Shown here: in pieces, positions 694 to 20,264 of the stretch
How positions within the stretch are numbered: the stretch's first letter is position 1
Layout: every line of letters begins with the position of its first letter
Source: an uncultured Pseudomonadota bacterium
GTDB lineage: Bacteria; Pseudomonadota; Gammaproteobacteria; Competibacterales; Competibacteraceae
Length of the DNA: 40,310 nucleotides
Direction: 5' to 3'
Assembly (NCBI GenBank): GCA_903844665.1
Contig: CAIMUS010000151.1
Coordinates: 1 to 40,310 of the forward strand
The notes under the pieces: generated by a model
Databases searched by the model: none
What the model was told of the DNA's origin: nothing
Seen by the model: only the letters and a program-made list of their open reading frames with translations
Made by a program: the position numbers and the translations under genes

Positions 694-3411
694 TTATGCC
701 GCCATGACGTCAGGCGCCCTTACCCTTGACGGCAGGTCGACACTACCCGCACGCGAGAGAGGCAGGCTGACATGCATGACGTCGGGGTCTTCGGGATCGC
801 TGTCGATGGTGAAACCCAGGGCTTGGTCGAGCCTGAGCATGGCTTCGTTTTCCTGCAACACCTCGCCGAACACTTCGGTGATGCCGCGCTGCCGGGCGTA
901 GGCGATGATCTCCCGCATCAACAGGAAACCCAGCCCCCGGCCGGCCATGCTGCGGTCTATGGCGATGGCGTACTCGGCCTTATCCAGATCGGGATCGGCC
1001 GCCAGGCTGACTATGCCCCAGATATCCGCCTTGCCGGCCACGCCCGGTCCGGTCAGGACAAAGGTCATTTCCCGGTCATAATCCAACTGGGTCAGCCGGG
1101 CGGCCAGATCGTGAGTGAGTTGCTTTAGGGGTCGGAAAAAACGCAGGTAAACATCCTCCGGCGGCATCCGCTGCACCATCGCCTGTAGGGCCGGTTCGTC
1201 CTCGGGCAGGATCGGGCGTAGGTACAGGATGCGCCCGTCAGGCAGGGTGAGGCGCTGTTCCAGTTCCTTGGGGTAGGGACGGATGGCCAGCCGCTCATGG
1301 GCCGGACCGGTCGCCGCGGCGATACGAATGCGGGCGCTCAGGGCGACAATGCCTTCGGCGTCGACGCGCAGCGGATTGATATCCAACTCCACCAGTTCAC
1401 CCAGGTCGACGACCATTTGCGAGACCTTGACCAGGGTCAGGGCCAGGGCGTCCAAATCAACGGGGCGGCCCGGACAATTACGCAGGAGTGAATACAGGCG
1501 GGTGCGCGCCATCAGTTCATGGGCCAGATGCATGTTCAGAGGGGGCAGTGCATAGGCGATGTCATTGATCACCTGGGCTTCGGTGCCGCCATGGCCGAAG
1601 AACAGCACCGGTCCCGCCTTGAACTCGTGCCCGGTACGCACGCCGATGGTCACTTCATAGGCGCCCCGCCGGGGCTGCATCGGCTGTACCGCGAAGCCTT
1701 CGAGCACGGCCTCGGGGGCCAGTGTTTGCACCCGCCGGAACATGGCGGACGCCGCCACGAAGACCTCCCGCGGTCCCTCCAGGTCCAGGGCCACGCCGCC
1801 CGCGGCAGACCGGCTGTCGATATCCGGGGAAAGAATCTTCAGTGCCACAGTACCGCCCAGTTCTTCGGCCAGCCCGGCGGCAGCCTCGGGGGTGGGGGCA
1901 AACCGGGTGCTCACCATCGGGATCTGGTAGGCCGCCAGCAACTCGCAGGTGGCGGAAACATTCAATTGGTCTCTACCCGCCGCCAGCGCCGCGGCGATAA
2001 CCCCACGGGCCGTTTCGATGGCGGGGGTAAAGTCCTCGGGAATGGAGGGGGGCGTCTCCATCAATAGTTCCTGATTACGCCGGTAGGCCGCCATCTGCAG
2101 AAAGGACCACACGGCATCTTCGGGAGTAATGTAGGTCGGGATTCGGGCCTTCTGCAGCAACTGCCAGGCCGGTGTGGTCGGTATCGCCCCGACCCAACTG
2201 ACCAGCACCGGGCGGACGCTCTGGGTCGCGCGGGCAACGATGGCCTGGCCGCTGTCCCGGTCCAGATCCGCAGAAACCGGAATGTGCACGATCAGGACGC
2301 CATCCGCTTCAGGTTCCTCGAGCAGCAGTTCCAGCGCCCGGTCGTACTCCTTAAAGCCGGCGCTGCTGCCCAGGTCCACTGGATTGCCATGCTGGCAGCC
2401 CGGAGGAATGATCCTGGCCAGTTCGGCGCGGGTGGCGGCGCTGAGGGCGGCCAGGGCGCCACCCTCTCTCGTCAGCATGTCGCCGGCCAACAGACCGACG
2501 CTGTGGCTGTTGCCCAGGATAAGCAGACGGTTTTTGTGAACCGGTTTGCTGTTGGCCAGGGTCTTCACCGCATTGAACAGGTGCTCGATGGTATCGACCC
2601 GCAGGATACCCACCCGACGGGCGGCGGCGTCATAAACCGCCTCTTCTATCGCCCGGTTGCCATAGACCCGAGGCTTCAGGGCGATGACGGGCTTAAGGCG
2701 CGCGGCCACCCGGGCCGCCGACATGAACTGACGCGGATTACGGACGCTCTCCAGATAGAGCAGGATAGCGCGGGTCTGCTGGTCCTGGGCCAGATAATCC
2801 AGCAGATCGCTGAAGCCCACATCCACCCGGGCGCCCAAGGAAACCAGATGGGCAAATCCGATATTTCTGAGGTTTGCCCAGTGAATGATCGCCCGCAGCA
2901 GGGTGGAGGACTGGGTCACCACGCTGATAGAACCAGGGATCATGGGGGTATGACTGAGGGTGGCGTTGATACCGTTGATGGGTACCGCCATGCCCAGCCG
3001 GTCCGGTCCCAGAATGCGCAGCCGATAGGGTTTGGCCGCCGCCAGCAGGTCTTGCTTCAGGGTCTCGTCATCCTGGCAGCCATTCAGCCGCTCGTTACTG
3101 AGCAGCAGCACGGCCCGGGTCCCTCTGGCGCCCAAGGCGTCGATCAGGGCAGGACCCTCCGCCAGAGGCAGGGTGCTGATCGCCAGATCCGGGGTCTCCG
3201 GCAGGCTGGCCACGTTACGATAAGCGAGCACCCCGGCCACGGCATGACGATTGGGGTTGACCGGCAGCACGGGTCCCTTGAAACCGGCATCGATCAAATT
3301 ATGCGCCAATAGTGCAGCCGGGTCATCGTCCTGCTTACCCCGCCCGATGATGGCGATGGAGCGGGGGTTGAACATCGATTTCAGTGTCCGGATCGTCATG
3401 GATGCGTCCAT
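694..3411 (-). CDS. pat: Pat/PatZ-type protein lysine acetyltransferase (acyl-CoA synthetase-like + GNAT)
   Basis: This encodes 905 residues, close to the roughly 890 of PatZ (YfiQ/Pka). An NDP-forming acyl-CoA synthetase-like part with a CoA-binding Rossmann fold starts at MFNPRSIAIIGRG (about residue 13). It continues through succinyl-CoA-ligase-like and ATP-grasp-like regions to about residue 700. A C-terminal GNAT domain (about 730-880) contains the acetyl-CoA-binding segment MAGRGLGFLLMREI. Enzymes of this family use acetyl-CoA to acetylate lysines, classically silencing acetyl-CoA synthetase, so the gene fits the acetate-metabolism theme with ackA. The start is uncertain: MDASM and the next Met (MTIRTLKS) are both possible and neither has a strong ribosome site. 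A broken copy of its 5' end lies upstream at 3650-3812. Confidence 0.9.
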   Translation of the reverse strand: MDASMTIRTLKSMFNPRSIAIIGRGKQDDDPAALLAHNLIDAGFKGPVLPVNPNRHAVAGVLAYRNVASLPETPDLAISTLPLAEGPALIDALGARGTRAVLLLSNERLNGCQDDETLKQDLLAAAKPYRLRILGPDRLGMAVPINGINATLSHTPMIPGSISVVTQSSTLLRAIIHWANLRNIGFAHLVSLGARVDVGFSDLLDYLAQDQQTRAILLYLESVRNPRQFMSAARVAARLKPVIALKPRVYGNRAIEEAVYDAAARRVGILRVDTIEHLFNAVKTLANSKPVHKNRLLILGNSHSVGLLAGDMLTREGGALAALSAATRAELARIIPPGCQHGNPVDLGSSAGFKEYDRALELLLEEPEADGVLIVHIPVSADLDRDSGQAIVARATQSVRPVLVSWVGAIPTTPAWQLLQKARIPTYITPEDAVWSFLQMAAYRRNQELLMETPPSIPEDFTPAIETARGVIAAALAAGRDQLNVSATCELLAAYQIPMVSTRFAPTPEAAAGLAEELGGTVALKILSPDIDSRSAAGGVALDLEGPREVFVAASAMFRRVQTLAPEAVLEGFAVQPMQPRRGAYEVTIGVRTGHEFKAGPVLFFGHGGTEAQVINDIAYALPPLNMHLAHELMARTRLYSLLRNCPGRPVDLDALALTLVKVSQMVVDLGELVELDINPLRVDAEGIVALSARIRIAAATGPAHERLAIRPYPKELEQRLTLPDGRILYLRPILPEDEPALQAMVQRMPPEDVYLRFFRPLKQLTHDLAARLTQLDYDREMTFVLTGPGVAGKADIWGIVSLAADPDLDKAEYAIAIDRSMAGRGLGFLLMREIIAYARQRGITEVFGEVLQENEAMLRLDQALGFTIDSDPEDPDVMHVSLPLSRAGSVDLPSRVRAPDVMAA

Positions 3412-3649: not shown

Positions 3650-3812
3650 GGCGAGCGGCCACGGCATGATGCTTGGGGCTGACCGCCGGCCCGGTCCCTT
3701 GAAACCGGCATCGATCGAATTGCCCTTCAGCAGAACAGCCGGATTATCGTCCTGGTTACCTCGCCCGATGATAGCGATGGAGCGGGGATTGAACATCGTT
3801 TTCAGTGATCGA
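3650..3812 (-). pseudogene. partial, frameshifted duplicate of the pat 5' end
   Basis: Read on the minus strand, the segment gives MFNPRSIAIIGRGNQDD, then an IDAGFKGP match, then loses frame. This matches residues 13 to about 60 of the intact pat gene, in the same orientation. At the DNA level it aligns with roughly 3225-3400. It is therefore a direct duplication of the pat start, 250-400 bp upstream of the real gene. It cannot encode a working enzyme. Confidence 0.85.
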
Positions 3813-4073: not shown

Positions 4074-4305
4074 GGCGCACCTCCCGGATGAACTGACAGC
4101 CTTCATACAGGGCAACGTAGCAATAATATCCGTCCATAATTATCTCCCGGAGAAAGTCAACTTCTAACAGGTTCACGCTAAAGATTAGTGCTTAGTTTAG
4201 AAAAAAAATATTATTTTTAAATATCACATTAGTCTTAATCCTTAAGTATAAACTCATTTTCTGACAACTAAAACCGGCTCTGTCATATATGGCCAAAGTT
4301 TTAAC

Positions 4306-4372
4306 TATATCCAATGGCCTATATCTTTTGTTCTATTGCCATCCTATAAGGGAGTTGATTCAATGTAGACGG
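4306..4372. repeat. 67-bp dispersed repeat, copy 1 (upstream of the histidine kinase)
   Basis: It matches 8610-8676 at 60 of 67 positions in the same orientation. Conserved core: ATATCTTTTGTTCTATTG. This copy lies about 200 bp before the kinase gene; the other lies about 270 bp before the GH31 gene. It may be a shared upstream control region or a small mobile repeat. Confidence 0.75.
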
Positions 4373-4396
4373 GCGTAACCAGTCGTCCGCTCACCT

Positions 4397-4467
4397 GTAG
4401 GAGCGAGCTTGCTCGCGAACACCGGGTTGCCGCCAACCGTTCCATTCGCGAGCAAGCTCGCTCCTAC
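4397..4467. repeat. REP-like hairpin (GTAGGAGCGAGCTTGCTCGC family)
   Basis: Arm 4397-4418 (GTAGGAGCGAGCTTGCTCGC and two more bases) is the inverse of the arm ending CTCGCTCCTAC at 4467. Each arm is itself palindromic (GCGAGCTTGCTCGC), the typical layout of paired REP units. Confidence 0.8.
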
Positions 4468-4574
4468 AGACGACGCCGGCAAAGGTTTAGGTATCGGTTT
4501 TAACTGCATCCCTATTCCGGTGCTGAACACCCTCTGAGCTATGATTAGGGCATTTGGGATAGCGTAAAGCCATC

Positions 4575-6626
4575 ATGAACTCAGATAACCAGCCTCTCCG
4601 CGCTGAAATCCAGGCGGAGCATATTCGCATCCTGTTTCGCCCACCCTTTATCATTATTATTTTTGCCCACATCATCGCGGGTGCCTTCCTGGTCTTCATC
4701 CTGTGGGACATGGCGCCGCACAATACCCTGCTCATCTGGCTGGCTGTTCTTTACAGTCTGGTGGCTGTTCGCTGGTTCTTCATCCGTGCCTATAGGCGGC
4801 ATCCACCCTCCCCTGAGATAGCGCCCCGTTGGGGATTGGCAACAGCGGCTTTGATGGCGCTCTTCGGCGTGGTTTGGGGTGGAGCCGCTATTCTTTTTCT
4901 GGACCCCGGACAGCCGGTGAGCTTGGCCACTGTATCATGTATTTTGATAGGAATGGGCATCGCGGGGGTGATGATTTTTGCGTCTTACCCACTGGCCTTT
5001 ATCACCTTTGTCGTACCCATCTTCACATCTCTGTTCACGGTATTACTGCTGCGCGGTGGTGAGGTAGGCGTGATAATCACCATACTGTGTGCCATGATGT
5101 TGGTGGTAACCTTGATCTATGCGAGCATCTTTCATCAGGTGCTCGATGATTCGTTGCGGCTGAGATTCGAAAACATCGCCCTGCGCCGGGAGACGGAAGA
5201 GAAGTCCGCTTTGCTGGAAACCACCTTGCAGAACATACGGCAGGGTATCAGCGTGGTTGACCGGGATGGCCGGCTGCGGATGTGGAACCAGCGCTTTCTG
5301 GACCTGCTTGGCCTTGGCCGCCGCCACGTGGATGATCATCAGCATCTGGATACGATTTTGCAGGCTGCCGACCCACCACTGCCTGAACTATCGAGAGAGC
5401 GGCTGGAGTACCGTCGCGCAGATGGCGCCGTCATCGAGGTTTTGCAAAACGCCATGCCGGATGGCGATCAGGTGTTGACCTATACCGATGTCAGCGACCT
5501 GAAGCGTCGGGAGGCGGCTCTGGAGCAGGCCAACGCCGCGAAGACCCGGTTCCTGGCCACCGCCAGTCACGATCTGCGCCAGCCCATCCATGCCCTGGGC
5601 TTGTTCTTCGCCACCCTGGCGGAGCAGGTGGGTAACGTCGAGACCACACTGCTTCTCAAACAGATCGGGGACTCGATCGACACCATCGACGCCATGCTCA
5701 ATGCCTTGCTGGATATCTCCAAGCTGGATGCCGGTGTAGTCCATCCCAAGATAGGTCCTGTGGCGGTAGCTGGATTGTTCCGGCGGCTGGAAACCGAGTA
5801 TCGACCCATCGCCCGGGAAACCGGCAACGCCCTGCGAATGCGCCCCTGCCAGGCGATCGTGCAAAGCGACGCCGCCATGTTGGAGCGGATGCTCAGAAAC
5901 CTGATCTCCAATGCTTTGCGCTATACGAAAAGAGGCCGCGTGCTGGTAGCCGCCCGCCGCCGCGGTGCCGGGCTGCGCTTCGAAGTGCATGATACCGGCC
6001 CCGGCATTCCGGCTGACAAACTGGATGACATCTTTCAGGAGTTCTATCAACTGGGCAATCCAGAACGGAACCGGCGTCAGGGCTTGGGATTGGGGCTGGC
6101 GATCGTCAAACGGGTGGCCGCCCTGCTGGGACATGATATTACCGTCCGCTCCCGGTTGGGGCATGGCTCCTGCTTTGCGATTACCGTGCCTCTGGCCCGT
6201 GAGCCACCCTCCCCTTTGCCATTCCCGGCGATGACGGCTCCCGGCCTGGAACTGAGAAACCACCGGGTGCTGGTGCTGGACGACGATCATGCCATCCTGG
6301 CGGCCATGGAAGGTCTGCTGAAGCGCTGGGGTTGCCAGGTCAGCACAGCGGCTTCGCTGGAAGAGGCGAAACGGAAAATAGCGGCAAACGCGCTGCCGCC
6401 GGAACTGCTGATCGTGGATTACCGTCTGCCTGGCCAGGCATCCGGCCTGGATGCGGCCTCGGCCCTGCAGGAGACTCTGGGCCACCAAGTACCGGTGCTA
6501 GTGATCACCGGCGACACCGCTCCCGACCGCCTGCGCGAGGCTCAGGCCAGCGGTTATCCGCTGCTCCATAAACCCGTGCAGCCGGCCAAGCTGCGTAGCA
6601 TCATGCGTCACCTAATCGGCCTCTAG
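4575..6626 (+). CDS. membrane hybrid histidine kinase with receiver domain
   Basis: This encodes 683 residues. About six transmembrane helices lie within residues 15-186, followed by a linker and a PAS-like domain (about 215-310). The HisKA domain carries the phospho-acceptor His332 in SHDLRQPIHAL. The HATPase domain (about 420-555) has NLISNALRY, DTGPGIP and GLGLGLAIVKR. A C-terminal receiver (about 570-683) has phospho-acceptor Asp615 in VDYRLPG. It should sense a membrane or cytoplasmic cue and pass phosphate on. Its likely partner is the LuxR-type regulator at 15489-16187: the last 25 bases of this gene and its 3' flank contain the tail of that regulator gene on the other strand, showing the two were once convergent and overlapping by 15 bp. 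The signal is unknown; the adjacent amylolytic genes suggest carbohydrate, but this is inference. Confidence 0.93.
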   Translation: MNSDNQPLRAEIQAEHIRILFRPPFIIIIFAHIIAGAFLVFILWDMAPHNTLLIWLAVLYSLVAVRWFFIRAYRRHPPSPEIAPRWGLATAALMALFGVVWGGAAILFLDPGQPVSLATVSCILIGMGIAGVMIFASYPLAFITFVVPIFTSLFTVLLLRGGEVGVIITILCAMMLVVTLIYASIFHQVLDDSLRLRFENIALRRETEEKSALLETTLQNIRQGISVVDRDGRLRMWNQRFLDLLGLGRRHVDDHQHLDTILQAADPPLPELSRERLEYRRADGAVIEVLQNAMPDGDQVLTYTDVSDLKRREAALEQANAAKTRFLATASHDLRQPIHALGLFFATLAEQVGNVETTLLLKQIGDSIDTIDAMLNALLDISKLDAGVVHPKIGPVAVAGLFRRLETEYRPIARETGNALRMRPCQAIVQSDAAMLERMLRNLISNALRYTKRGRVLVAARRRGAGLRFEVHDTGPGIPADKLDDIFQEFYQLGNPERNRRQGLGLGLAIVKRVAALLGHDITVRSRLGHGSCFAITVPLAREPPSPLPFPAMTAPGLELRNHRVLVLDDDHAILAAMEGLLKRWGCQVSTAASLEEAKRKIAANALPPELLIVDYRLPGQASGLDAASALQETLGHQVPVLVITGDTAPDRLREAQASGYPLLHKPVQPAKLRSIMRHLIGL

Positions 6627-6670
6627 CCCGGACTCGACGGGCGGTGGGATCAGACTCCGCCGGGAGGCTT
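6602..6670. repeat. 69-bp direct repeat, left copy (kinase 3' end plus regulator 3' end)
   Basis: It matches 15479-15547 at 64 of 69 positions, same orientation. On the plus strand it holds the kinase end (MRHLIGL-stop). On the minus strand it reads the last residues of the regulator (ASRRSLIPPPVESGLEAD-stop). The two copies bound the amylolytic cassette. Confidence 0.9.
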
Positions 6671-6685
6671 TCAACTAAAGTTATA

Positions 6686-8607
6686 GTTAGTGTCTGACCG
6701 AAAACCTATTGTTGCAAGCAAGAATTAACAACTTTAGGGTCGTTCAATTAAAAAAATCAGCATCTATTGATTTGTTTTCTGCATTCATCGCCCCTTATTT
6801 TAGCAAAAAACAGTTTGTAGAGGGTAACTGTTTACTTTTTTCCTCAGTTTCTCATTTTTGGCACAGATCTCTCTCTTGAGATCGATCATCTCCCTCCCGT
6901 AACGCCGACTACCAGGTTTCAGCTAAGCTGCTTTTAGATAAACTTCTGTTTCTTGCTCTTGCTCTTGCTCTTGACGTTGTAAATAACGGCCTAAGAGCTG
7001 AATATTTCTGGCGACTACCGCCAAGGCAACATAGCGTCGTAAGGCCGGTAAACCCCGGTCGGGGCAACGATCTAAACCGTGGACTTCTAACGCATGAATG
7101 GCTGACTCAATCGCCGCGTGTTGGCGCCGTCCCGCTACAAACTCGTCTGTCTGTTGCTGGGCCTGTTGCGCCTTGGACAGCCGACCTTTCTTCGGCAGAA
7201 TCACAGTGTCCAGTAACGGGGCTAAGTCGCGTTGATTGGCAGTGGAATGAAACCCCTGATCAAAGCTACAGGATGACAGCTCAGGAAACCGCGCTTGGGT
7301 TTCCTTTACCATCTCCACCGGAATGTCGACATCGACTTCCTGCAACATCAGCCGATGATGCAGAATAAACTGATGTTGATCTTCGACGATACAAGCCGCC
7401 ACTCCCAATTCCACCGGTACCCCCGCTTTACCTTTGCTCAACCATTCCGTATGGGGTTCAAAAATCGAAAATACTTTTTCCTGATGCGGGATGGTTTCAC
7501 CCTGAATGACACGGCGTTCAATCTGATTGATTTGGCGCCGGGCATGATTGATAAACTCTTCTATTTTCAATAGCTTACTTTTACTTTCCGGGTAATGTTG
7601 CCACAGTTTCCGCCAAGTCTTCTCCACCTGCTGCAGCAACACGTTCGCCTCCCGAAGATACTCTTGATGGGCCTCAACAATCGCCTGTTGACGGCGGGCT
7701 CTCTTGGCCTCATCTTTCGCCGAAGACGGCTTCAACCGTTGCAATTGACGCAGTATCTTTTTCAGCTCTCGAATCTGATCTTGACCCGTTTTCCAGTCGA
7801 GTAAGCCGACCGTCTTGCACTCCGCCATTAACAACTCAATCGTTTTCCGAACAGCCTCAAACAGTAAGCGGGTATCCGTAGGATACTCCACGTTGGTTTC
7901 CACAACAAAGGAATCACACCGTCCCTTGAGTTTGTCTTTAATGGGGGGTACTGCAGCTAACCTGTGACTGTCTTTTTGCAGGTTTTTTCTAATCAGTTGA
8001 TGCCCCGCTTTCACCACCGCTTGATTCACTTGATCGAGTATTTCCGGCGTGAACAGCACCACATTATCTTTCAGCGTCTGTAAGCTATAGCGTTTGCCAT
8101 CATCGACGTCACCATAACCTAATATCTGTCGAATCATCCGATGGTTATTGACCAAGTTATGGAGGCGATCATAATCACAGTTTAACCCTAATCGCAGCAC
8201 TCCAATCACTAATATGCTCCACAGATCCATCCCCGGTCGTCCATTGTCAAGATCGAGTTCTGGTGGAAACATACCTGTGAGGATTGCAAACACTTCTTGA
8301 CGGAGGAGTGGCGTCACAAAAATATAGTGTAATCCTTTAATTAACTGAGGAATATCATCACGCGAGTCGGGCTCCAGTTCCATCTTATCAATCTCCATTG
8401 CTTCGACCGGTTTATAGGTAAATTCGCGCATAATAACTTCCTGAGAAGGAGGGTAAAAGACGACCAGAATTTAGTAAAAGCATAGCACCAACAGTAGAAA
8501 TATACTAGAATTAATAGGAAAAAAGCCTTACTAGAATAAGATGATATCGTATGCCTATCTTTTAACTATTTGAATTTAAAAGAAAATTTTTTTTCGGCCA
8601 GACACTA
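6686..8607 (-). mobile_element. insertion sequence, ISNCY-like, about 1.92 kb
   Basis: The transposase gene is enclosed by terminal inverted repeats: TAGTGTCTGACCGAAAA at 6688 and its near-inverse TTTTCGGCCAGACACTA at 8591-8607 (one mismatch). GTTATA occurs just outside both ends (6680-6685 and 8608-8613), so a 6-7 bp target duplication is likely, although the left end has two extra bases that blur the exact boundary. The element landed between the 69-bp repeat and the 67-bp repeat, so it arrived after those were placed. Non-coding parts inside are AT-rich. Confidence 0.8.
6923..8431 (-). CDS. IS transposase (DUF772-type N-terminus, ISNCY-like)
   Basis: This encodes 502 residues. The N-terminal region (GMFPPELDLDNGRPGMD ... 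YGDVDDGKRYSLQTLKDNV) is typical of the InsH/DUF772-type transposase N-terminal domain. The later part has FDQGFHS, consistent with a DDE catalytic core, and a helical coiled-coil-like middle (residues 220-310). A Gln/Glu repeat near the C-terminus (QEQEQEQE) comes from a short CTTGCT-type tandem run near 6952-6972. The reading frame is intact, so the element may be active. Family assignment rests on overall resemblance, not on a search. Confidence 0.85.
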   Translation of the reverse strand: MREFTYKPVEAMEIDKMELEPDSRDDIPQLIKGLHYIFVTPLLRQEVFAILTGMFPPELDLDNGRPGMDLWSILVIGVLRLGLNCDYDRLHNLVNNHRMIRQILGYGDVDDGKRYSLQTLKDNVVLFTPEILDQVNQAVVKAGHQLIRKNLQKDSHRLAAVPPIKDKLKGRCDSFVVETNVEYPTDTRLLFEAVRKTIELLMAECKTVGLLDWKTGQDQIRELKKILRQLQRLKPSSAKDEAKRARRQQAIVEAHQEYLREANVLLQQVEKTWRKLWQHYPESKSKLLKIEEFINHARRQINQIERRVIQGETIPHQEKVFSIFEPHTEWLSKGKAGVPVELGVAACIVEDQHQFILHHRLMLQEVDVDIPVEMVKETQARFPELSSCSFDQGFHSTANQRDLAPLLDTVILPKKGRLSKAQQAQQQTDEFVAGRRQHAAIESAIHALEVHGLDRCPDRGLPALRRYVALAVVARNIQLLGRYLQRQEQEQEQETEVYLKAA

Positions 8608-8609
8608 GT

Positions 8610-8676
8610 TATATCCAACAGCCTATATCTTTTGTTCTATTGTCATCCTATAAGGGGAGTGATTCAATGTAGGCGG
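8610..8676. repeat. 67-bp dispersed repeat, copy 2 (upstream of GH31)
   Basis: It matches 4306-4372 at 60 of 67 positions. It begins at the right end of the insertion sequence; the bases to the left of that element (CTAAAGTTATA) continue the similarity weakly, so the element split or abutted the repeat. The 8677-8942 stretch to the GH31 start holds no gene. Confidence 0.75.
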
Positions 8677-8942
8677 TGCTTTCTGAATTGCAACATGGAA
8701 GTGTTCCTGAGATAGGATGAGGGTTCCCAGAAAACGCCGCTATGAGCTTAAATGTAGTCGTGATCATTTGGATGATCGGCCTTAGAGCCTATAAGCGTAA
8801 CTTCCAATCAACCTATGGAAAATGAGTATATGCAACTCAATCAACCCGAACGACATTTGTTGTGCCTCTGCATCGAGTCAATATCAAGTTGGCCGGTGAC
8901 GACCTTGGCAGATGTCCAGTGCGTAAGTAGTTTGGAGGAACT

Positions 8943-11900
8943 ATGAGAAAATCACTCAGTAAGAAACTGATAAGTGCCGTAGGGATTGGCGCTATATTCA
9001 CAGGGATGCTGGCCTTACCACAAACCACCCAGGCGGCTGACTGGCATGGGGTCAAGTTTCCGCAGTCAGGTACCAACAATTACCTGGTTGTGGAGTTCCC
9101 GCGGGATGACCTGGTGCACTTCGAGCTTTCCGGGATGGGACCCGGACCCGATGCCAGCAAAGCAATCTTCACCACCTCTCAGGTAGCCAAAACCGATTAC
9201 ATTGGACCGAGCAGCTTCGTGCGATCAGGGCCAGGGGGCAATACCTTGGATACGGCGGACATGAAGGTAGTGGTCAACACCGACCTCTGTATGACCGTGA
9301 CGAACAAGACCAAAGGCCAGGAATTGACCACGATCTGCCCCCTCAACTTGTCGCATGATTGGAAAGGGCTGACTGTTACACCAGGCGGCATGCAGCATGT
9401 GTATGGTTTGGGAGAACAGTTCATCACCGCGGGTGATGCCGATGGTGACTGGACAGGCCGGATACGTGAATCGACCCAAGATCCGTTCGGAAACCATATG
9501 GATGGTTTCAATAATGCCTGTTGTGCTGGCAATGCTCAGTTCCCGGTGATGTACGCTGTCGGCGCTAACAATGCCAACTACGCTCTGTTCCTGGACCATA
9601 TCTACAAACAACGCTGGGATTTCACGGTCAATCCGTGGAAAGTCGAGACCTGGGGTGACCAGATTCGCGGGTACCTGATGATCGGTGCCAATCTGCCGGG
9701 CTTGCGTCAGGCCTACATGGATTTGACCGGTCACCCGCCGGTACCGCCGAAGAAAATGTTCGGGTTATGGGTCTCGGAATACGGCTACAACAGCTGGGGG
9801 GAGATCGACGACAAGCTCAGCAAACTGCGCGCCGACAAGTTTCCGATTGACGGCTTTGTGCTGGACCTCCAGTGGTTCGGCGGTGTGCCGGCAACCAACA
9901 ACAAGCCGAGCCACATGGGCAGCCTGACCTTCGACGACAAAAACTTCCCTGACCCCGCAGGCAAGCTAAAGACCTATAAGGACCAAGAAGGCATCGGCAT
10001 CATGACGATCGAAGAGTCGTACATCGACGATGGAGCTGTAGAACATGACGACCATCACGACATGGAAAGCCAAGAATACTTGGTGAAACAATGCACAAAT
10101 GGCCCAAAAAATACCTGTAAGCCCGCGCTGGCGTGTCCCGCCGCCACTTGTCCTCCCATTGTGCTGCACCACGACGATTTTTGGGGTACCGGCGGGATGA
10201 TCGACTGGACACAGGAGGGAGCTGGCAATCACTGGCATGACAAGAAGCGCCAGCCGTTGATCGATAAGGGCGTGATAGGCCACTGGCTCGACCTGGGTGA
10301 GCCGGAGACATACGATCCCACGGACTGGGTGGCCGGGATCCTCCCTGGCAAGCATGCGCACGCCGACTACCATAACATGTATAGCTTCAAGTGGGCGGAG
10401 AGCGTCGCGCGCGGTTATGCGCGCCATGGGGTAACGCGCCGGCCGTTCATGATGGCGCGTTCCGGCGCCAGTGGCATCCAGCGGTTTGGTGTCAGCATGT
10501 GGTCGACCGACATCGGTTCCAAGCTGGCCAACCTAGCGGCACACGAGAATGCTCAGATGCATATGTCCATGTCGGGTATGGATTACTTCGGCGCGGACAT
10601 CGGCGGGTTTCATCGTGAGCAGATGGACGACGACCTGAACGACATGTTCACCCAGTGGTTCGCCAACGGCATAATGTTTGACGTGCCGGGGCGGCCTCAC
10701 ACGGATAATCATGAATGCCCATATCCACCTCCGAGTCCACTACCGGACAAGTGTAGAGAGACGGCACCTGATCTAATCGGTGACAAGGCAAGCAACTTGG
10801 CGAATCTCCACCAGCGTTACGAACTGAGTCCCTACCTGTACTCACTGGCCCATCGTGCCTATCTGGCTGGTGAGCCGGTGGTACCGCCGCTGGTCTACTA
10901 CTACCAGAATGACATGAATGTCCGTAGGATGGGTTGGGAAAAGCTGCTTGGCCGCGATCTCCTGGTCGGGGTCGTCGCTAAACCAGGCGAGGCAAAACCT
11001 GGCGCGGAGCCGCGCGACATCTATCTGCCAGCGGGTGACTGGGTCAACTATCACACCAACGAGTGGTTCCACAGCACAGGGCAAACCTTTACCGGGCAGC
11101 CCGTGTTCCAGGATGGCATCTTCCGGCTGCCAACCTATGCTCGGGCTGGCGCGATTATCCCCAAGATGTTCGTCGACGATAAGACGATGAACGTCGTCGG
11201 CAAACGGACGGATGGTTCCACCCGCAATGAGTTGATCGTTCGGGTATACGCTGCCAAAGTGCCCAGCAGCTTCACGCTCTATGAGGACGACGGTGAAACC
11301 ATCGCCTACCAGAGCGGCGTCGTGCGCACCACTGTCATTTCCCAGCAGCTCTCCACCGACGGCAAGAGTGAAACGGTCACCATCGCGGCTGCCAGCGGCA
11401 GCTACGACGGCGCGCCGACCAGCCGTGCCAATGTCGTTGAACTGGTGGTAGAAGACGGGCAGGCCGACAAGGATAAGGGTGTTACCCTGAATGGGGGCAA
11501 ACTGACCCAACTCGCCAGCCGTGAGGCATTCGATGCGGCCGACAGTGGCTGGTTTAATGCCGGCAACAATCTGATCCTGGCCAAATCTGGCAGCCTGACC
11601 GTCGCCGATAGCAAGACCTTTGGGGTTGCGCTGGTTCCTCCACCACCATTTGCAAAGTTTGTATGCAAGAACGGTGATACGGTATTAGGTCAATCAGTGT
11701 ATGTGGTGGGCGATGTTGACGTACTTGGCAACGGGAATCCTGCCAAAGCGGTGAAGCTCGATCCTAACGGCCCTTACCCGATCTGGACCGGTGTGATCAA
11801 GAACCTGCCACCGAGCAAGACCATTCAATGGAAATGCCTCAAGCGGTCGGAAACTGGTGACACCAGCCACGGCGAGTTGCAACCGGAGCCGAGTAATGTG

Positions 11901-12272
11901 CTCAAGACACCGGAAAAAGGAGATGCTGGTACGACTACCGGCGACTTCGCTCCTGATGGGGTTGTGTCTGTGTCATTTGTCTGCGACAACGGCACCACGG
12001 TAGTTGGTCAATCTGTGTATGTGGTCGGGAGTATTCCCGCTCTCGGCAACTGGACGCCTGCCAAGGCGGTGAAGCTCGATCCTACGAACTATCCGCGCTG
12101 GACCAAGACGATCTCCCCACTGCCGGCGAGCACCAAGGTCGAATGGAAATGCATCAAGCGGGCGGAAACTGGTGACACCAGCCACGCCGATCAATGGGAA
12201 AAACCGGCGGGCCCGAATAATGTGGTTACCACTCCCGCGTCGGGAAATGTCACGACCAACGGTAGTTTTTAA
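8943..12272 (+). CDS. secreted GH31 alpha-glucosidase with two CBM20 starch-binding domains
   Basis: This encodes 1109 residues. Residues 1-31 are a Sec signal peptide ending TTQA-A. A GH31 N-terminal beta-domain leads to a TIM barrel from about residue 270 (FGLWVSEYGYNSW). The likely nucleophile is Asp450 in HWLDLGEPE and the acid/base is Asp523 in MWSTDIGS (family WSGD motif with G to T). GADIGGF follows. Beta-sandwich domains lie at about 740-890. Two CBM20-like modules follow (about 904-998 and 1007-1105), each with GQSVYVVG, a WT turn and EWKC/QWKC. The enzyme should act outside the cytoplasm on alpha-glucans bound by its CBM20 modules. A GGAGG ribosome site stands before the ATG, and a hairpin terminator follows. 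Exact linkage preference (alpha-1,4, 1,6 or transfer) cannot be read. Confidence 0.92.
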   Translation: MRKSLSKKLISAVGIGAIFTGMLALPQTTQAADWHGVKFPQSGTNNYLVVEFPRDDLVHFELSGMGPGPDASKAIFTTSQVAKTDYIGPSSFVRSGPGGNTLDTADMKVVVNTDLCMTVTNKTKGQELTTICPLNLSHDWKGLTVTPGGMQHVYGLGEQFITAGDADGDWTGRIRESTQDPFGNHMDGFNNACCAGNAQFPVMYAVGANNANYALFLDHIYKQRWDFTVNPWKVETWGDQIRGYLMIGANLPGLRQAYMDLTGHPPVPPKKMFGLWVSEYGYNSWGEIDDKLSKLRADKFPIDGFVLDLQWFGGVPATNNKPSHMGSLTFDDKNFPDPAGKLKTYKDQEGIGIMTIEESYIDDGAVEHDDHHDMESQEYLVKQCTNGPKNTCKPALACPAATCPPIVLHHDDFWGTGGMIDWTQEGAGNHWHDKKRQPLIDKGVIGHWLDLGEPETYDPTDWVAGILPGKHAHADYHNMYSFKWAESVARGYARHGVTRRPFMMARSGASGIQRFGVSMWSTDIGSKLANLAAHENAQMHMSMSGMDYFGADIGGFHREQMDDDLNDMFTQWFANGIMFDVPGRPHTDNHECPYPPPSPLPDKCRETAPDLIGDKASNLANLHQRYELSPYLYSLAHRAYLAGEPVVPPLVYYYQNDMNVRRMGWEKLLGRDLLVGVVAKPGEAKPGAEPRDIYLPAGDWVNYHTNEWFHSTGQTFTGQPVFQDGIFRLPTYARAGAIIPKMFVDDKTMNVVGKRTDGSTRNELIVRVYAAKVPSSFTLYEDDGETIAYQSGVVRTTVISQQLSTDGKSETVTIAAASGSYDGAPTSRANVVELVVEDGQADKDKGVTLNGGKLTQLASREAFDAADSGWFNAGNNLILAKSGSLTVADSKTFGVALVPPPPFAKFVCKNGDTVLGQSVYVVGDVDVLGNGNPAKAVKLDPNGPYPIWTGVIKNLPPSKTIQWKCLKRSETGDTSHGELQPEPSNVLKTPEKGDAGTTTGDFAPDGVVSVSFVCDNGTTVVGQSVYVVGSIPALGNWTPAKAVKLDPTNYPRWTKTISPLPASTKVEWKCIKRAETGDTSHADQWEKPAGPNNVVTTPASGNVTTNGSF

Positions 12273-12374
12273 CCATAAGGCAGACAAGGGTGGAATGGGT
12301 GCAGCCGGCAGGGGTTAAAGCCTGCACTGCAAACATGCCAGGGAAGGCGTCTTAACCTGACCCGGCATTACAAG

Positions 12375-12403
12375 GGAGCGTGTTGAGGCACGCTCCTTTG
12401 TTT
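12375..12403 (+). terminator. rho-independent terminator after GH31
   Basis: An 8-bp perfect stem (GGAGCGTG / CACGCTCC) with a 6-nt loop is followed by TTTGTTTGTT. It lies about 100 bp after the GH31 stop codon, so GH31 and the next hydrolase are probably separate transcripts. Confidence 0.85.
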
Positions 12404-12434
12404 GTTGCTTGGGTAGTGCTCCAAGAGTGTTGCC

Positions 12435-12478
12435 CAGTGATTAAAACTTATTGATTTAACTTACTAAAATATGCCATA
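12435..12478. repeat. 44-bp dispersed repeat, copy 2
   Basis: It matches 3803-3846 at about 36 of 44 positions, same orientation. It lies about 125 bp before the next hydrolase gene. The rest of 12273-12603 holds only the terminator and no gene. Confidence 0.55.
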
Positions 12479-12603
12479 CCAACACTCCTGCAACATTACC
12501 GATGACCCATGCATAGCACTCGACTGGTTATACACTCTGCAAACTTGCTTTAACAGCAATTCCAGGAACTGAGCAATAAGGCTGTTCCTGGAGGAGATTT
12601 CAC

Positions 12604-15450
12604 ATGAAGAATCAGCAGTTGGCAACTTTCGGGCCGGTAAACGGCGGCGTGTCCGCTGGTGCGATGGCCGCCGATGTCCGATGGGTAGGTAATACCTATC
12701 ATTGGCCTTTTAACGGCAACATTACACCCTCCAGCGAGGTGTGGATCAATACCGAATCCTGGCCAATGGGCGCGGCAGTCGGCGGGAGAGTCGTTTACAG
12801 CACCGATTACGGCGCAACCTGCCATTCGGTCGACATGAGCAAGAACGGTACCGCCGGCAATAACGATCGGTGGCACGTCAACCTGGGAACATTTCCCTCT
12901 GGCACGACCATTCGCTATGCCGTCGAGGTAACCAGCCCCTCCAGGGGGGACAACAACGGTGGTCAGGATTACCATGCCACGGTCGGAGAGATTGGTTCCA
13001 ATTTCCTGAACTGGAACGGCAGTACCGCCAGTCTTGCCGTTTCCAATCCTGACAGCGATGCCCGCGGCTATACCTTGAATTCCAATGCGGTGCGACGCCC
13101 CGACCCCACCGTCGGCAATCCCCGTCATTACTCCGAGACGTCCGGCAAGCCGATTGTCCGAACCGGCAACAATCTGTTCGACGGCCTGTTCAGCCTGGCT
13201 TATGAAGAAATGACGAACACGCTTTCTGTCCCTCCAACGGGAACGGACGGCTGGTTCAAGGCCGGCGTGCTATGGCCCGACGTCTGGACGCGCGACAGTG
13301 CCTATTCGGTCGATCTCTCGCTCGCCCAGCTCGACCCCGTCCGGGCGATGAATACCTTGAACTTCAGAGTCTCCGACCGGCGCGGCAATCCGGGTAAGCC
13401 TGAAATCATGCAGGACACCGGTTCGGGCGGCAGTTGGCCGGTGAGCAGCGATCGGGTGGTCTGGGCGCGTGCGGCCTGGGAACTGCTCAAATACCTCGAT
13501 GGTAGCATCCGCACCCGTTTTCGTGATGCCGCCTGTAACGCCATCGTCAATACTGTCGAGAACGATCGGATCGCTCTCTATGACTCCCGGGACGGTCTCT
13601 ACCGCGGTGAGCAATCCTTCCTTGATTGGCGTGAACAGACCTATCCCTCCTGGACGGCCAACAGGGTGGTGCATATCGGCATGTCGAAGACCCTGTCCAC
13701 CAACGTCAATCATTGGAGGATCCTCGATGTGGCTGCCAGGCTAGCCGATGAGAAGGGTCTGACGGCGGTGCGGGACAAATACCGCGGCTGGGCGGATGCC
13801 TTGAAGACGGCGCTCGACGAGCAGTTGTGGCTGGTAAACACCGGGCTTTACAGCACGATGAAAACCACCGAACTGGATCCCTCTGCGATCAGGCGATACG
13901 ATTTGCTGGGCGAAGCGCTGGTTATCATCGACGGCATCGCCGATAACACCAAGGCGGCTTCGATTCTCCAAAAGTATCCACACACCGTGGCCGGCGCCCC
14001 GGTTTCCTGGCCGCAAATCCGGGACACCAAGATTTATCACAACCGCTCGATTTGGCCCTTCACGACGGCCTATTGGATGAAGGCTGCCGCTCTGGCGAAG
14101 AACGATCAGGTGGTGAACCACAACCTCAAGTCCCTGCTACGCGGCGCGGCTTTGAATTTGTCGAATATGGAGAATTTCGAGTTCATCAGCCTTTCCGCCT
14201 GGGTCAATGATCCCGATAACAAGGATGACGATGACGTAAAAGGTCATGGGCCGGATATCGACTCGGAGGCCCAGCTTTGGTCAGTGGCAGGTTATATGTC
14301 CGCGGTGCTGGATGTGATTTTCGGTCGGCAGGCGACCCAAACCGGCATCCGGTTCCAACCCTTCGTGACCCAGTATATGCGGAATACGTTGTTCCCAACC
14401 GCTTCCAGCATCAAACTCAACAACCTGCCTTACAAAGGTAAGATATTGAATGTCGAATTGCTGCTTCCGGCCAAAGGAACGGGTAACAACGGGTATTACA
14501 ATGTGTCCAGCGTGACGCTGAACGACACGACCGTGGCGAATGACACCTACTTTACTGCCACCAAACTGGCCACGACAAATCGAATCCAGATCCAGCTCGT
14601 GGACGCCAATGCTCCCGCTTCCAGTATGACAGTGATAAACGATACCGGTGACTACAAACGCTTCTGGGCGCCCAGAGAGCCCAACATCGTGAGCGTGACG
14701 CTCAACGGCGGATTATTGACAGTCAGCTTCGACACCAACGGTGAAAGTGGCGTGACTTACAACATCTATCGCAACGGCGTGGAAGTGGCAAGTGGCCTTA
14801 CCTCCACCAAGTGGACCGATCCCGATTCCGGAAATTGGGCGACAAAAACTCTGGGCTACAGCGTCGAGCAGAAATACACCGGAAGTTACCCGGTTGACAA
14901 CTATTCGCACCACTCCGATCCAGTGTGTTACTGGGAGGCAGCTGGCGCCTACACTGAGATCAATACCGGCAGTGGTTTAAACAGTCTGGATGGCGCTTCC
15001 ACAGCCCGGGATCACGACAGGTACCACTTCAACAATTGGGGGCGCCCGGACCAAGTTCTGGAAGCGACCTATAAACCTAGTGTGACAGGCAGGTACGCTA
15101 TCCAGACTATTTACGGCAACGCTTTCAATGGAGTCAACACTGGCATTACTGCCTGCGTGAAGATCATAGAAGTGGTCGACAGTTCCAATCAAGTCGTAGC
15201 CTCTGCGGTGATGATAATGCCGCACCTCCCCTCGATGGATCCGAAGAAACCGGATCCCTGGGATACCTGGGGGGATTCCAGTTTTGCCCAGGCTTCGCTC
15301 ACGGCGGGTGTCACCTACAAGATCCGCATCAAAGACTTCTACAACATGTCCTACCTTGCCAGCAACGCCAACTATGGCGGCGCCGGAGGTTCGAACGGGC
15401 CGATCAACCGGGCGAATATCTCCGGCCTCAAGATTCTGAGAATGGAGTAA
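12604..15450 (+). CDS. large (alpha/alpha)6-type glycoside hydrolase with accessory carbohydrate-binding-like domains
   Basis: This encodes 948 residues with a good ribosome site (GGAGGA, 7 nt before ATG). The N-terminal beta-domain (about 24-115; RWVGNTYHWP ... GTFPSGTTIRYAVEV) looks like a starch-binding or early-set domain. The middle (about 190-590) is all-helical and resembles a six-hairpin glycosidase, with WPDVWTRDSAYSVDLSLAQL, NRSIWPFTTAYW and DIDSEAQLWSVAGY as candidate active-site segments. A fibronectin-III-like part (about 680-760) and a C-terminal CBM-like beta domain (about 780-948) follow. An amylolytic or debranching role is inferred from the GH31 neighbour. The exact GH family is not certain. 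The N-terminus ends in AGAMA-A like a cleavage site but lacks a hydrophobic core, so export is unclear. Confidence 0.75.
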   Translation: MKNQQLATFGPVNGGVSAGAMAADVRWVGNTYHWPFNGNITPSSEVWINTESWPMGAAVGGRVVYSTDYGATCHSVDMSKNGTAGNNDRWHVNLGTFPSGTTIRYAVEVTSPSRGDNNGGQDYHATVGEIGSNFLNWNGSTASLAVSNPDSDARGYTLNSNAVRRPDPTVGNPRHYSETSGKPIVRTGNNLFDGLFSLAYEEMTNTLSVPPTGTDGWFKAGVLWPDVWTRDSAYSVDLSLAQLDPVRAMNTLNFRVSDRRGNPGKPEIMQDTGSGGSWPVSSDRVVWARAAWELLKYLDGSIRTRFRDAACNAIVNTVENDRIALYDSRDGLYRGEQSFLDWREQTYPSWTANRVVHIGMSKTLSTNVNHWRILDVAARLADEKGLTAVRDKYRGWADALKTALDEQLWLVNTGLYSTMKTTELDPSAIRRYDLLGEALVIIDGIADNTKAASILQKYPHTVAGAPVSWPQIRDTKIYHNRSIWPFTTAYWMKAAALAKNDQVVNHNLKSLLRGAALNLSNMENFEFISLSAWVNDPDNKDDDDVKGHGPDIDSEAQLWSVAGYMSAVLDVIFGRQATQTGIRFQPFVTQYMRNTLFPTASSIKLNNLPYKGKILNVELLLPAKGTGNNGYYNVSSVTLNDTTVANDTYFTATKLATTNRIQIQLVDANAPASSMTVINDTGDYKRFWAPREPNIVSVTLNGGLLTVSFDTNGESGVTYNIYRNGVEVASGLTSTKWTDPDSGNWATKTLGYSVEQKYTGSYPVDNYSHHSDPVCYWEAAGAYTEINTGSGLNSLDGASTARDHDRYHFNNWGRPDQVLEATYKPSVTGRYAIQTIYGNAFNGVNTGITACVKIIEVVDSSNQVVASAVMIMPHLPSMDPKKPDPWDTWGDSSFAQASLTAGVTYKIRIKDFYNMSYLASNANYGGAGGSNGPINRANISGLKILRME

Positions 15451-15478
15451 ACAATAGATAGAAATAAAGCATTATAAC

Positions 15479-15547
15479 CATGCATCACCTAATCGGCCTC
15501 CAGCCCGGATTCGACGGGAGGTGGGATCAGACCCCGCCGGGAGGCTT
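15479..15547. repeat. 69-bp direct repeat, right copy
   Basis: It matches 6602-6670 at 64 of 69 positions. On the plus strand it keeps a decayed kinase tail (HHLIGLQ, stop codon changed to CAG); on the minus strand it is the working end of the regulator gene. Confidence 0.9.
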
Positions 15548-16187
15548 CGATGACCGCATGAGTGCGGTTACCGGCATTCAACGCCCGCAAGATGGCCGTG
15601 ACATGCAGTTTCACGGTGCCTTCCGCCAACTCCAGGCGTTTGCCGATAACCTTGTTGGATAAACCCTGCCCCATCAGGCGCAGCACCTCCACCTGCCGTG
15701 GGGTCAGTCCGCCTTCACCGCCTTCTTCCAACTGAACCGGGGGTGTCTGGACCGAAACCAAGGGGGTCGAAGATGCAGGCAGGCTTGCCAGGGCAGCCAG
15801 CAAGGCCGGTGGGATATACACATCGCCCGCCAGCACGAGGCGCAGAGCGGTAATCATCTCGTGGCTGCTGCATGATTTCACGATATAGCCTGCCGCACCT
15901 GCATTCAAAGCGTGTTGCACAGTGGTCGGGTTCTCCGAGGCGGACAATATGACCAGGGGAACCGCGGGCGTCAGCCCATGCAGTTCAGGCAATACCGACA
16001 GACCGTCTCTGTCCGGCAGGGCCAGATCCAACAGGATCAAGTCCAGGTCCTGATAGTGGGCGGCCAGGTGCATGGCCTCCTTGGCAGTCGCTGCTTCGAT
16101 CACCACGGCGGTGTCATCGAATTGCTTGATAACGTGCAGGAGTGCTTCGCGAAATAAAGTATGGTCGTCAACAAGAAGAATACGCAT
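15489..16187 (-). CDS. NarL/LuxR-family response regulator
   Basis: From the ATG at 16187 it has 232 residues and starts MRILLVDDHTLFREALL; longer starts exist (to 16259), but a GGAG site about 10 nt upstream and the family length favour this one. The receiver domain has acidic Asp7/Asp8 and phospho-acceptor Asp54 in LLDLALPD. A variable linker of about 30 residues leads to a LuxR helix-turn-helix (LTPRQVEVLRLMGQGLSNKVIGKRL ends in a DNA-recognition helix). It should bind DNA when phosphorylated. Its probable kinase is encoded at 4575-6626, separated from it by the amylolytic cassette. Targets are unknown; the cassette genes are candidates. Confidence 0.9.
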   Translation of the reverse strand: MRILLVDDHTLFREALLHVIKQFDDTAVVIEAATAKEAMHLAAHYQDLDLILLDLALPDRDGLSVLPELHGLTPAVPLVILSASENPTTVQHALNAGAAGYIVKSCSSHEMITALRLVLAGDVYIPPALLAALASLPASSTPLVSVQTPPVQLEEGGEGGLTPRQVEVLRLMGQGLSNKVIGKRLELAEGTVKLHVTAILRALNAGNRTHAVIEASRRGLIPPPVESGLEAD

Positions 16188-16230: not shown

Positions 16231-17079
16231 TCAGGTTGCGCGCCGCAGTCGCCGCACACTGTCGATGGGCAGACCGGTCTTGGCAGCGATCAACGCATCG
16301 TCGTCGGTCATATCCAGCAGGGCCTGGGCAATCCGCAGCCGTTCTTCCTGCTTGCCTTTTTCCATGCCTCGTTGTTCGGCCAGGGTGATGGCGCCGCGCT
16401 GATCCTGGATGAATATCTCCCGTCGCTCCTGATCCTCCAGTTCTTCCGGCGTCAGCCCGGCTTTATTGGCGATCTCGAACGCCTGCACAATCGCCGGCTC
16501 CACTTGCAAACTGGCCGGCGCCGACTCCAGGTCGCCGGCGTGTTTCAGAAAAAAGAACCAGCGGTCCAGCACCGTCTCCAGGTCCTGTTCGGTCTTGGTG
16601 AACTTGGGTAATTCGGCGAACACCAGTTCCAGATCGTCGCTATAGAGCCGTCCCGTTTCCGCCAGCAGATGGAATTTGTTGACGATGGCGGGCAGGTCCT
16701 CGAACATCACGAAGTCGGTGATGGTGATGGCGATGACATCGGTCAGCAGGTGGTAGTCCTCGCCTCGCTGGATCTGGCCGGAGTAGGCTTTACAGGCGTT
16801 GTAAAGCACCCGCTTTTCGAAGGCGGCGACGTTGAGCACCTGCATTTCGATGATATACCACTGGCCCTGTTCATCGCGGGCGCGGACGTCCAGGTAGGTG
16901 TCTTTCATCCCCTGGATTTTGGGGGCCAGGTAGGGATCGAGCAGGGTGAGATCGACGATCCGGTAGGGCGATTGCAGCCCCAGAATGGCGTTGAGGAAGC
17001 TTAACAGGATATCGTGGCTGCGCTCGGAGCCGAAGATCCGTTTGAAAGCGAAGTCGGTTTTGGGATTGAGGAAGCGCAT
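16231..17079 (-). CDS. Rpn-family recombination-promoting nuclease / PD-(D/E)XK putative transposase
   Basis: This encodes 282 residues with the family's usual start (MRFLNPKTDFAFKRIFGSE) and nuclease core (YLDVRARDEQGQWYIIEMQV), where Asp in DVRA and Glu/Gln in EMQ are the predicted catalytic residues. The C-terminal part is helical and charged (QRGMEKGKQEERLRIAQALL), as is usual. Family members are DNA endonucleases that promote RecA-independent recombination. It appears intact and full length. It ends 44 bp before the regulator's start codon on the same strand, so the two could be co-transcribed. Confidence 0.85.
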   Translation of the reverse strand: MRFLNPKTDFAFKRIFGSERSHDILLSFLNAILGLQSPYRIVDLTLLDPYLAPKIQGMKDTYLDVRARDEQGQWYIIEMQVLNVAAFEKRVLYNACKAYSGQIQRGEDYHLLTDVIAITITDFVMFEDLPAIVNKFHLLAETGRLYSDDLELVFAELPKFTKTEQDLETVLDRWFFFLKHAGDLESAPASLQVEPAIVQAFEIANKAGLTPEELEDQERREIFIQDQRGAITLAEQRGMEKGKQEERLRIAQALLDMTDDDALIAAKTGLPIDSVRRLRRAT

Positions 17080-17360: not shown

Positions 17361-17809
17361 CCCGGTAACACTGGTGTCCAGTAACCGTTCAGACCCCCCA
17401 CCCCAACCCTCCCCCACAAGGGGGGAGGGAGTTATTGCAAAACAGCTACTTAGCGTATTCCCCCTCCCCTTGTGGGAGGGGGCTAGGGGGAGGGGGGTGA
17501 ACGCTTACGGTGTCCAATGCTTATGAGGTTGCAAAGGCGGGCGGAAAGTATTCGGGCTGGTTGAAACAGCAGCGTATCTTGCCGGTGCATTTACTCGAAA
17601 AAGCGATTCGTTCGTTTGAGAAATTAATTGCAGAACATGAATCCTGGCTGGAAGACCCGGCCCGCAAGATTCCTGATTTTTATTGCTTGCATCTCAACCA
17701 GCAGAAGCATTTGTTGGAGAAGCATTGGCCGGATGATATCCAACGCAACCGGGATTACGTGACTATTCTGAAAGGCATTTTGCAGGAGAAAAGGCATGGC
17801 GATGAGTGA
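17341..17809 (+). pseudogene. small unknown gene split at its 5' end by a MITE
   Basis: The original gene can be rebuilt by removing the 128-bp element and one 8-bp target copy. It then reads from the ATG at 17341, MASEANSPVTLVS, straight into NAYEVAKAGGKYSGW and on to the stop at 17807, giving about 110 residues. Today the first 13 codons are separated from the rest by 136 bp that shift the frame. A GTG at 17510, inside the target duplication, could still start a 99-residue product, so the protein may survive with a shorter N-terminus. It is rich in charged helical residues (LLEKAIRSFEKLIAEHESW). No family recognised. It overlaps both neighbours. Confidence 0.75.
17381..17508 (+). mobile_element. 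128-bp MITE with 8-bp target duplication, copy 1
   Basis: The element starts GTAACCGTTCAGACCCCC and ends GGGGTGAACGCTTAC, so the ends are imperfect inverted repeats (GTAASCGTTCA). It is flanked on both sides by the perfect 8-bp repeat GGTGTCCA (17373-17380 and 17509-17516). The C-rich and G-rich arms make it nearly palindromic, and it has no coding capacity. GTAA ends plus 8-bp duplications are hallmarks of IS66-family elements, so a full-length IS66 relative probably mobilised it. The second copy is at 29102-29229, inverted. Confidence 0.93.
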
Positions 17810-20126: not shown

Positions 20127-20233
20127 GTAGGGGCGGTTCGCGAACCGCCTCGATAACATCTGCCTGTAGGGGCGGTTCGCGAACCGCCTCGATAACATCT
20201 GCCTGTAGGGGCGGTTCGCGAACCGCCCCTACT
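20127..20233. repeat. three REP-like palindromes in 39-bp tandem
   Basis: Units start at 20127, 20166 and 20205. Each holds the palindrome core GTAGGGGCGGTTCGCGAACC; the first two end in CGCCTCGATAACATCTGCCT, the third has the full CGCCCCTAC arm. It fills the pyrG-kdsA gap and may modulate read-through or mRNA stability. Confidence 0.88.
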
Positions 20234-20264
20234 AATACCCATCCCCCGACAGGGGAGGCCCATC

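Follow-up and report, generated by a model that had tools for sequence, protein, structure and literature searches.

The locus described here raises the question of how the genes for a hybrid sensor kinase and a response regulator, whose 3' ends occur together in each of two direct repeats, came to stand 9 kb apart with two carbohydrate-active enzymes and an insertion sequence between them. Throughout, the window means the whole 40,310-nt stretch of DNA that was analysed, and positions are window positions unless another contig is named. The parts follow each other in the order D8a, kinase, D6a, D8b, cassette, and D6b with the regulator, and the foreign cassette stretch spans 8677-15478. The arrangement is known from one genome, which alone represents its genus in our sample. 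The features are as follows.

4295..4372, plus strand: D8a, upstream repeat of the first unit, 5' of the kinase (aligned without gaps to D8b, insertion sequence omitted)
4575..6626, plus strand: hybrid sensor histidine kinase of the NahK/ErcS family (Pfam; NCBIfam NF041832)
6602..6670, no strand: D6a, left 69-bp repeat, kinase 3' end with a relic of the regulator 3' end
6671..6676, no strand: 6-nt filler from D6a to D8b, the proposed duplication junction (alignment)
6677..6688, plus strand: D8b left of the insertion sequence, 9 of 12 nt matching D8a, the final 4 nt being the AGTT target duplication
6689..8606, minus strand: insertion sequence, 1918 bp (NCBIfam ISNCY_1; ends and AGTT duplication)
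8611..8676, plus strand: D8b right of the insertion sequence (repeat alignment)
8943..12272, plus strand: GH31 glycosidase with two CBM20 stretches (Pfam; sequence)
12604..15450, plus strand: second glycoside hydrolase-like protein, predicted six-hairpin (alpha/alpha)6 and beta domains (weak Pfam, family matches, model, Foldseek)
15479..15547, no strand: D6b, right 69-bp repeat, kinase stop codon lost (sequence)
15489..16187, minus strand: NarL/LuxR-type response regulator (Pfam, NCBIfam; start from relatives)

D6a (6602-6670) and D6b (15479-15547) are direct repeats identical at 64 of 69 positions. This is the best match that D6a has elsewhere in the window, and the maximum reached in 100 first-order Markov resamples of the window was 38. 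The repeat corresponds to the final 25 nt of the kinase and the final 59 nt of the regulator, so that our alignment bears out the sequence-only reading, which had described each copy as holding both gene ends. Its further observations on the repeats also held: the kinase stop codon survives in the left copy alone (TAG in D6a, CAG at the same place in D6b), and the regulator stop maps to 6612-6614 of the left copy, which implies an ancestral overlap of 15 bp between the convergent kinase and regulator. Read in the regulator frame, D6a ends in ASRRSLIPPPVESGLEAD followed by a stop, while the true regulator ends in ASRRGLIPPPVESGLEAD and a stop; judged by sequence, the former is a relic of the latter. 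A genome search with 6560-6720 returned the query itself, D6b, and a paralogous kinase on C6, this last up to the kinase stop codon. Each of the other 22 matches covered at most 29 nt of the query; the insertion-sequence end accounts for 21 of these, and the last is 16 nt long and lies elsewhere.

The kinase was searched for in 96 genomes at E<=1e-60, with no more than 12 candidates scored per genome, and at least 21 gave a match, its own included. Regulator matches were taken at E<=1e-8 by tblastn, and the distances given lie between the projected end of the kinase and the end of that match. A convergent regulator was observed within 105 nt of the kinase match in 13 of the 20 other genomes, at 524 nt in one and at 1063 nt in one. 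Four of the 20 (G074, G058, G003 and G081) had no convergent regulator in about 1.5 kb downstream, G003 showing a regulator-like match on the opposite side of the kinase, and in the remaining one (G022) the contig ends within the kinase. Two of the 15 genomes with a convergent regulator carry an extra kinase match without such a neighbour (L020, L026), and one kinase match (L036) was left unclassified in this respect. In all four of the closest relatives with complete ends (G016, G029, G037 and G035), whose kinases are 60-67% identical to that of the window, the pair is uninterrupted; by ORF coordinates the two genes overlap by 4 nt in three of them and are separated by 27 nt in G035. Since the closest four have an uninterrupted pair, the split in the window genome is the derived state, and the earlier suggestion that a native convergent pair had been opened here stands. 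Among the closest relatives we found neither a uniformly split arrangement nor a different adjacent regulator. Three flanking genes were tested (acyl-CoA ligase, PD-(D/E)XK and pyrG), and none was found on the examined contigs of five relatives; the ancestral locus was therefore reconstructed from the pair alone.

The flanks have features of their own. At 3656-3807, about 420 bp upstream of the acyl-CoA ligase-like gene (694-3411), is a degraded duplicate (84-85%) of that gene's own 5' end, and stretches related to the same 5' end occur on two other contigs (81% on C59, 72% on C296). Adjoining the regulator, 16231-17079 holds a gene of the Rpn/PD-(D/E)XK nuclease family. Further away, 17381-17509 and 29101-29229 form a 129-nt inverted repeat, 97% complementary with 11.6 kb between its arms, and a tandem array with a 126-nt period and five listed copies occupies 29842-30629 within a long plus-strand ORF (29763-32969).

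A second repeat, the D8 pair, was overlooked in the earlier note. The stretches 4306-4372 and 8610-8676 are identical at 60 of 67 positions, against a best value of 35 in 100 resamples. With the insertion sequence and one AGTT omitted, the repeat extends without gaps to 68 of 78 positions (4295-4372 against 6677-6688 plus 8611-8676), and D8b therefore starts 6 nt past the end of D6a. The entire D8 has just two matching places in the 4.9-Mb genome; elsewhere no more than the final 12 nt of D8a is found. Judged on position alone, D8b would begin so close (within 7 nt) to the left edge of an insert of about 6.9 kb with a chance of about 0.1%; when nothing but the part right of the insertion sequence is counted, the chance is about 0.3%. 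No counterpart of D8 was found upstream of five other kinases (four in relatives and the C6 kinase; 236-970 nt each, one of the five stretches being a neighbouring ORF), and D8 is thus not demonstrable as an old part of the kinase unit. Its interpretation as an old kinase promoter was rejected on these comparisons and on a scan of D8 that revealed no sigma-70-like site. The interval between D8a and the kinase contains a 25-bp perfect inverted repeat with a 25-nt gap (CTGTAGGAGCGAGCTTGCTCGCGAA; 4395-4469), parts of which are found on many contigs. A palindromic repeat, GTAGGGGCGGTTCGCGAACCGCCCCTAC, occurs at 36-63, 20127-20243 and 37638-37665, two of these copies being partly degenerate, and it is also present upstream of the C6 kinase.

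The insertion sequence at 6689-8606 has inverted-repeat ends (AGTGTCTG[A/G]CCGAAAA), an AGTT duplication and a transposase ORF (6923-8431) that scores 482 bits against a cut-off of 325 for NCBIfam ISNCY_1. It was its own sole match in the genome at E<=1e-5, with the best 40 of 49 candidates scored. Because it splits D8b it came after the duplication, and with its AGTT duplication it fits the description of a late arrival already given by the sequence-only reading. Three short elements of about 90-250 nt (L006, L081 and L083) share its terminal inverted repeats; two have flanking duplications, AGCT and AATT, and one has no clear duplication. From their sequences these are probably non-autonomous relatives of the ISNCY-type element.

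We then considered what the cassette encodes. The GH31 enzyme joins a catalytic family active on starch to a starch-binding domain: Pfam identifies two CBM20 stretches, and the N-terminus, judged by eye, resembles a signal peptide. A role of the cassette in starch use is accordingly predicted from CBM20 and GH31. The second hydrolase gave a weak MGH1-like Pfam match, below the cut-off. Among 22 aligned members of its family, at E<=0.01, 18 matched the MGH1-like model, 17 the six-hairpin rhamnosidase model and 15 the amylo-alpha-1,6-glucosidase model. Its structural model (pLDDT 78, pTM 0.83, residues 1-126 unreliable) has as Foldseek neighbours GH94 phosphorylases (best E 6.9e-14, TM-score on query 0.35), rhamnosidases, GH63 enzymes and invertases. 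A search of solved structures with the protein sequence by itself yielded nothing useful, and the same search with a family profile yielded weak matches to six-hairpin enzymes. Based on the family-model matches and the Foldseek neighbours, the protein is likely to be a six-hairpin glycosidase or phosphorylase. One plasmid relative is annotated as an amylo-alpha-1,6-glucosidase. Relatives often start with a lipoprotein-like or export-like signal (by eye, at mechanically chosen starts), which the window protein does not have.

Neither GH31 nor the second hydrolase was detected in any of the 38 other genomes of the family (E<=1e-60 and E<=1e-10, respectively). This absence strengthens a foreign origin of the cassette and agrees with the inserted segment proposed earlier. 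In 274 genomes drawn from the class, its own included, the second hydrolase occurred in one and GH31 in two. Composition gave no sign of foreign origin, the cassette having 54-60% GC like its flanks, and no near relative was found as a donor. The best 80 of at least 587 relatives of the second hydrolase are at most 47% identical and come from, for example, Phyllobacterium, Halomonas, Myxococcota and rumen bacteria; five records in the plasmid collection match it at 34-40%, all below 60%. GH31 has a 56% identical match in Nonomuraea (an 11.9-Mb record in the plasmid collection) and one of 52% in a single genome of the class. Among the best 80 loci, many of them shortened by contig ends, a full-length GH31 with CBM20 lies beside the second hydrolase in two, L139 (Bdellovibrionales) and L166 (Silvanigrellales), and five others have weaker GH31 matches of 22-26% identity. 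As in the window, the genes of L139 and L166 are adjacent (GH31 38-40% and second hydrolase 35-37% identical); they are on the same strand in L139 but divergent in L166. At E<=1e-20 the window regulator found no counterpart in either locus, and L139 has a generic kinase match (31%) about 4.6 kb before the second hydrolase. Since the two genes adjoin in two such distant bacteria, they plausibly belong together functionally, and on the same comparison they may have been acquired as a pair.

The window kinase contains PAS, HisKA, HATPase_c and a C-terminal receiver (Pfam), and Pfam identified no N-terminal SLC5 symporter domain of the SLC5-STAC type found in CrbS/MxtR. It resembles the NahK/ErcS hybrid kinases in passing the cut-off of their NCBIfam subfamily domain (NF041832, near_NosP_CTERM; 413.2 bits, cut-off 400), and it stays below that of the NahK model NF041831 (381.8 against 1500). 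The C6 paralogue (L039, 7291-9369) is 76% identical to it. Both carry ASHDLRQP and LLIVDYRL, which we take to be the phospho-accepting His motif and the receiver Asp motif. The 3' end of the C6 kinase matches D6a only as far as the stop codon; D8 and the regulator relic are both absent from it, and a search of 1.5 kb revealed no convergent regulator beside it. The four relatives have 338 invariant columns in common; 287 of these are retained by the window kinase and 294 by the C6 kinase. In HisKA the figures are 55 and 59 of 61, five family-invariant residues being kept by C6 and lost in the window kinase and one the other way round; in the receiver they are 72 and 70 of 81, with none and two, respectively. 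These differences are too few to decide on partner choice. The two kinases share 18 of their final 20 codons, compared with 349 of 520 conserved residues overall. Gene conversion between the 3' ends was considered and rejected, the 95% identity over the last 66 bp being, by our estimate, unremarkable once selection of the best window is allowed for.

The regulator ORF is open up to a GTG at 16259; its start is most likely the ATG at 16187, since three relatives share the residues that begin there. Like the ErdR/CrbR (NarL-LuxR) regulators it matches the NCBIfam NarL, MadR and ErdR models, all below cut-off, and it differs from them in missing that of ErdR (NF041830; 124.6 bits against 390). 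It has a single match in its own genome at E<=1e-25. The earlier note predicted that the kinase at 4575 and this regulator are cognate. By ancestry this is likely, and signalling between the two in trans probably continues. It is not secured, however, since the genome has a second kinase and one matching regulator, so that ancestry alone leaves cognacy unsettled; the orphan C6 kinase may share the single regulator or may have taken it over. If our reading is true, the locus is a natural case of a two-component pair persisting 9 kb apart beside a second kinase, in which partner choice can be tested.

Scans for sigma-70-like and ACTU sites gave no sign that the regulator controls the cassette. 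The ACTU matrix was built from nine distinct CrbR sites in the accessible portion of PMC5715377, with training scores of 17-23, and the regulator here may use another site. With this CrbR-derived matrix no convincing CrbR-type site was found before the kinase, before GH31, in D8 or between the enzymes. The best score was 13.0 in the gap between ligase and kinase (9 of 200 shuffles as good), followed by 9.6 in 8607-8942 before GH31 (22 of 200), 3.7 in D8a (52 of 200), 1.9 between the enzymes (170 of 200) and -2.3 before the regulator (109 of 200). The accessible part of the MxtR/ErdR paper (PMC8402216) offers no binding site usable for the present locus.

Returning to the question of origin, we consider the best explanation, and a reasonably probable one, to be that the kinase unit was duplicated in tandem and that its second copy carries the cassette. 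The ancestor, as its relatives show, would have had a convergent hybrid kinase and LuxR-type regulator with 3' ends meeting or overlapping. A unit of about 2.4 kb, approximately 4295-6670, from just upstream of the kinase to 59 nt into the 3' end of the regulator, would then have been doubled in tandem; we infer this doubling because D8a, kinase and D6a directly precede D8b and, beyond the cassette, D6b. In the second unit the GH31 and second-hydrolase cassette (8677-15478) would occupy the position of the kinase body. The first unit would retain the intact kinase and the last D6 would be part of the intact regulator, leaving kinase, regulator and new enzymes as three functions all whole, and the insertion sequence would subsequently have landed in D8b. 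The nearest route is probably a merodiploid, in which captured or taken-up DNA integrated beside the resident copy and did not replace it. In favour of duplication, the ends of the unit are doubled in the same order and orientation, and the start of the second copy adjoins the end of the first within 6 nt; against it counts the shortness of D8b left of the insertion sequence, 12 nt with 9 matching.

The earlier note had the overlap duplicated by insertion of the cassette. The pair was indeed opened, but the duplication exceeds the overlap, a D8 copy standing 6 nt past the left repeat, and a plain duplication of the overlap in the manner of a target site is set behind because it leaves D8b unexplained. 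The same objection applies to a single insertion into a break in the overlap unless template-switching repair copied D8 and the overlap at the junctions, in which case a second kinase never existed. With template switching this makes a reasonable rival, since no kinase remnant was found in the second unit (the 266 nt 5' of GH31 and the 28 nt 3' of the second hydrolase match kinases over no more than 10 nt) and D8 has no counterpart before other kinases. It would also suit the shortness of the copied stretches, 78 and 69 nt, and the 6-nt filler between D6a and D8b. Templated junction patches of that length are unusual in bacteria, and we hold the single event to be possible but rather unlikely. 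That two older tandem kinase-regulator pairs lost regulator 1 and kinase 2 through deletion and insertion of the cassette is very unlikely: the 7-13% difference between copies, above that of a fresh duplication, and the presence of a second kinase in the genome would agree with it, yet the loss of regulator 1 must end exactly at the D8 copy, its relic stops after 59 nt, and the C6 kinase has neither D8 nor the relic.

Direct repeats at the 3' end of a gene, with the end restored on one side, resemble island attachment sites, as if D6a and D6b were halves left by a lost or decayed island that used and rebuilt the kinase 3' end. The three large ORFs scanned are the ISNCY-type transposase, GH31 and the second hydrolase, with no integrase among them, and D8b would again lack an explanation; attachment sites were rejected on the former ground, and site-specific integration is highly improbable, even more so than the older tandem pairs. 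An assembly error in which the repeats bridged unrelated pieces might be suspected in a draft genome of 348 contigs, but with 5 of 69 and 10 of 78 positions differing between the copies, the exact words they share are short, and we give this the lowest probability of all. Tandem duplication of the kinase unit is therefore the reading we retain. A more specific form of it, which we regard as doubtful, is a fossil merodiploid of two lineages, with a donor allele of D8b, cassette, D6b and regulator placed in tandem behind the resident D8a, kinase and D6a. If it were true, the 7-13% differences would represent the divergence of donor and recipient, and a carbohydrate cassette would have been gained without loss of the kinase.

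The locus is a readable rearrangement in one genome, unusual yet of an ordinary kind, and no new molecular system. If the duplication is true, the locus exemplifies, on a small scale and in fixed form, the gain of genes next to a resident one by tandem duplication, with the junctions and the later insertion sequence still readable. For comparison, according to the accessible portion of PMC3784515, transformation of Streptococcus pneumoniae yields merodiploids in which an intact copy and one bearing a cassette lie in tandem; those duplications are laboratory-made and span about 100-900 kb, and the first of them to be described was bordered by IS861 repeats. The present unit differs from what is described there in being about 2.4 kb long, in the divergence between its copies, in having no border repeats that we could find and in a second copy without a kinase. 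The likeness lies in the tandem arrangement of an intact and a cassette-bearing copy, through which the target gene is retained, and by this analogy the pneumococcal merodiploid would be the closest known kind of event that we found.
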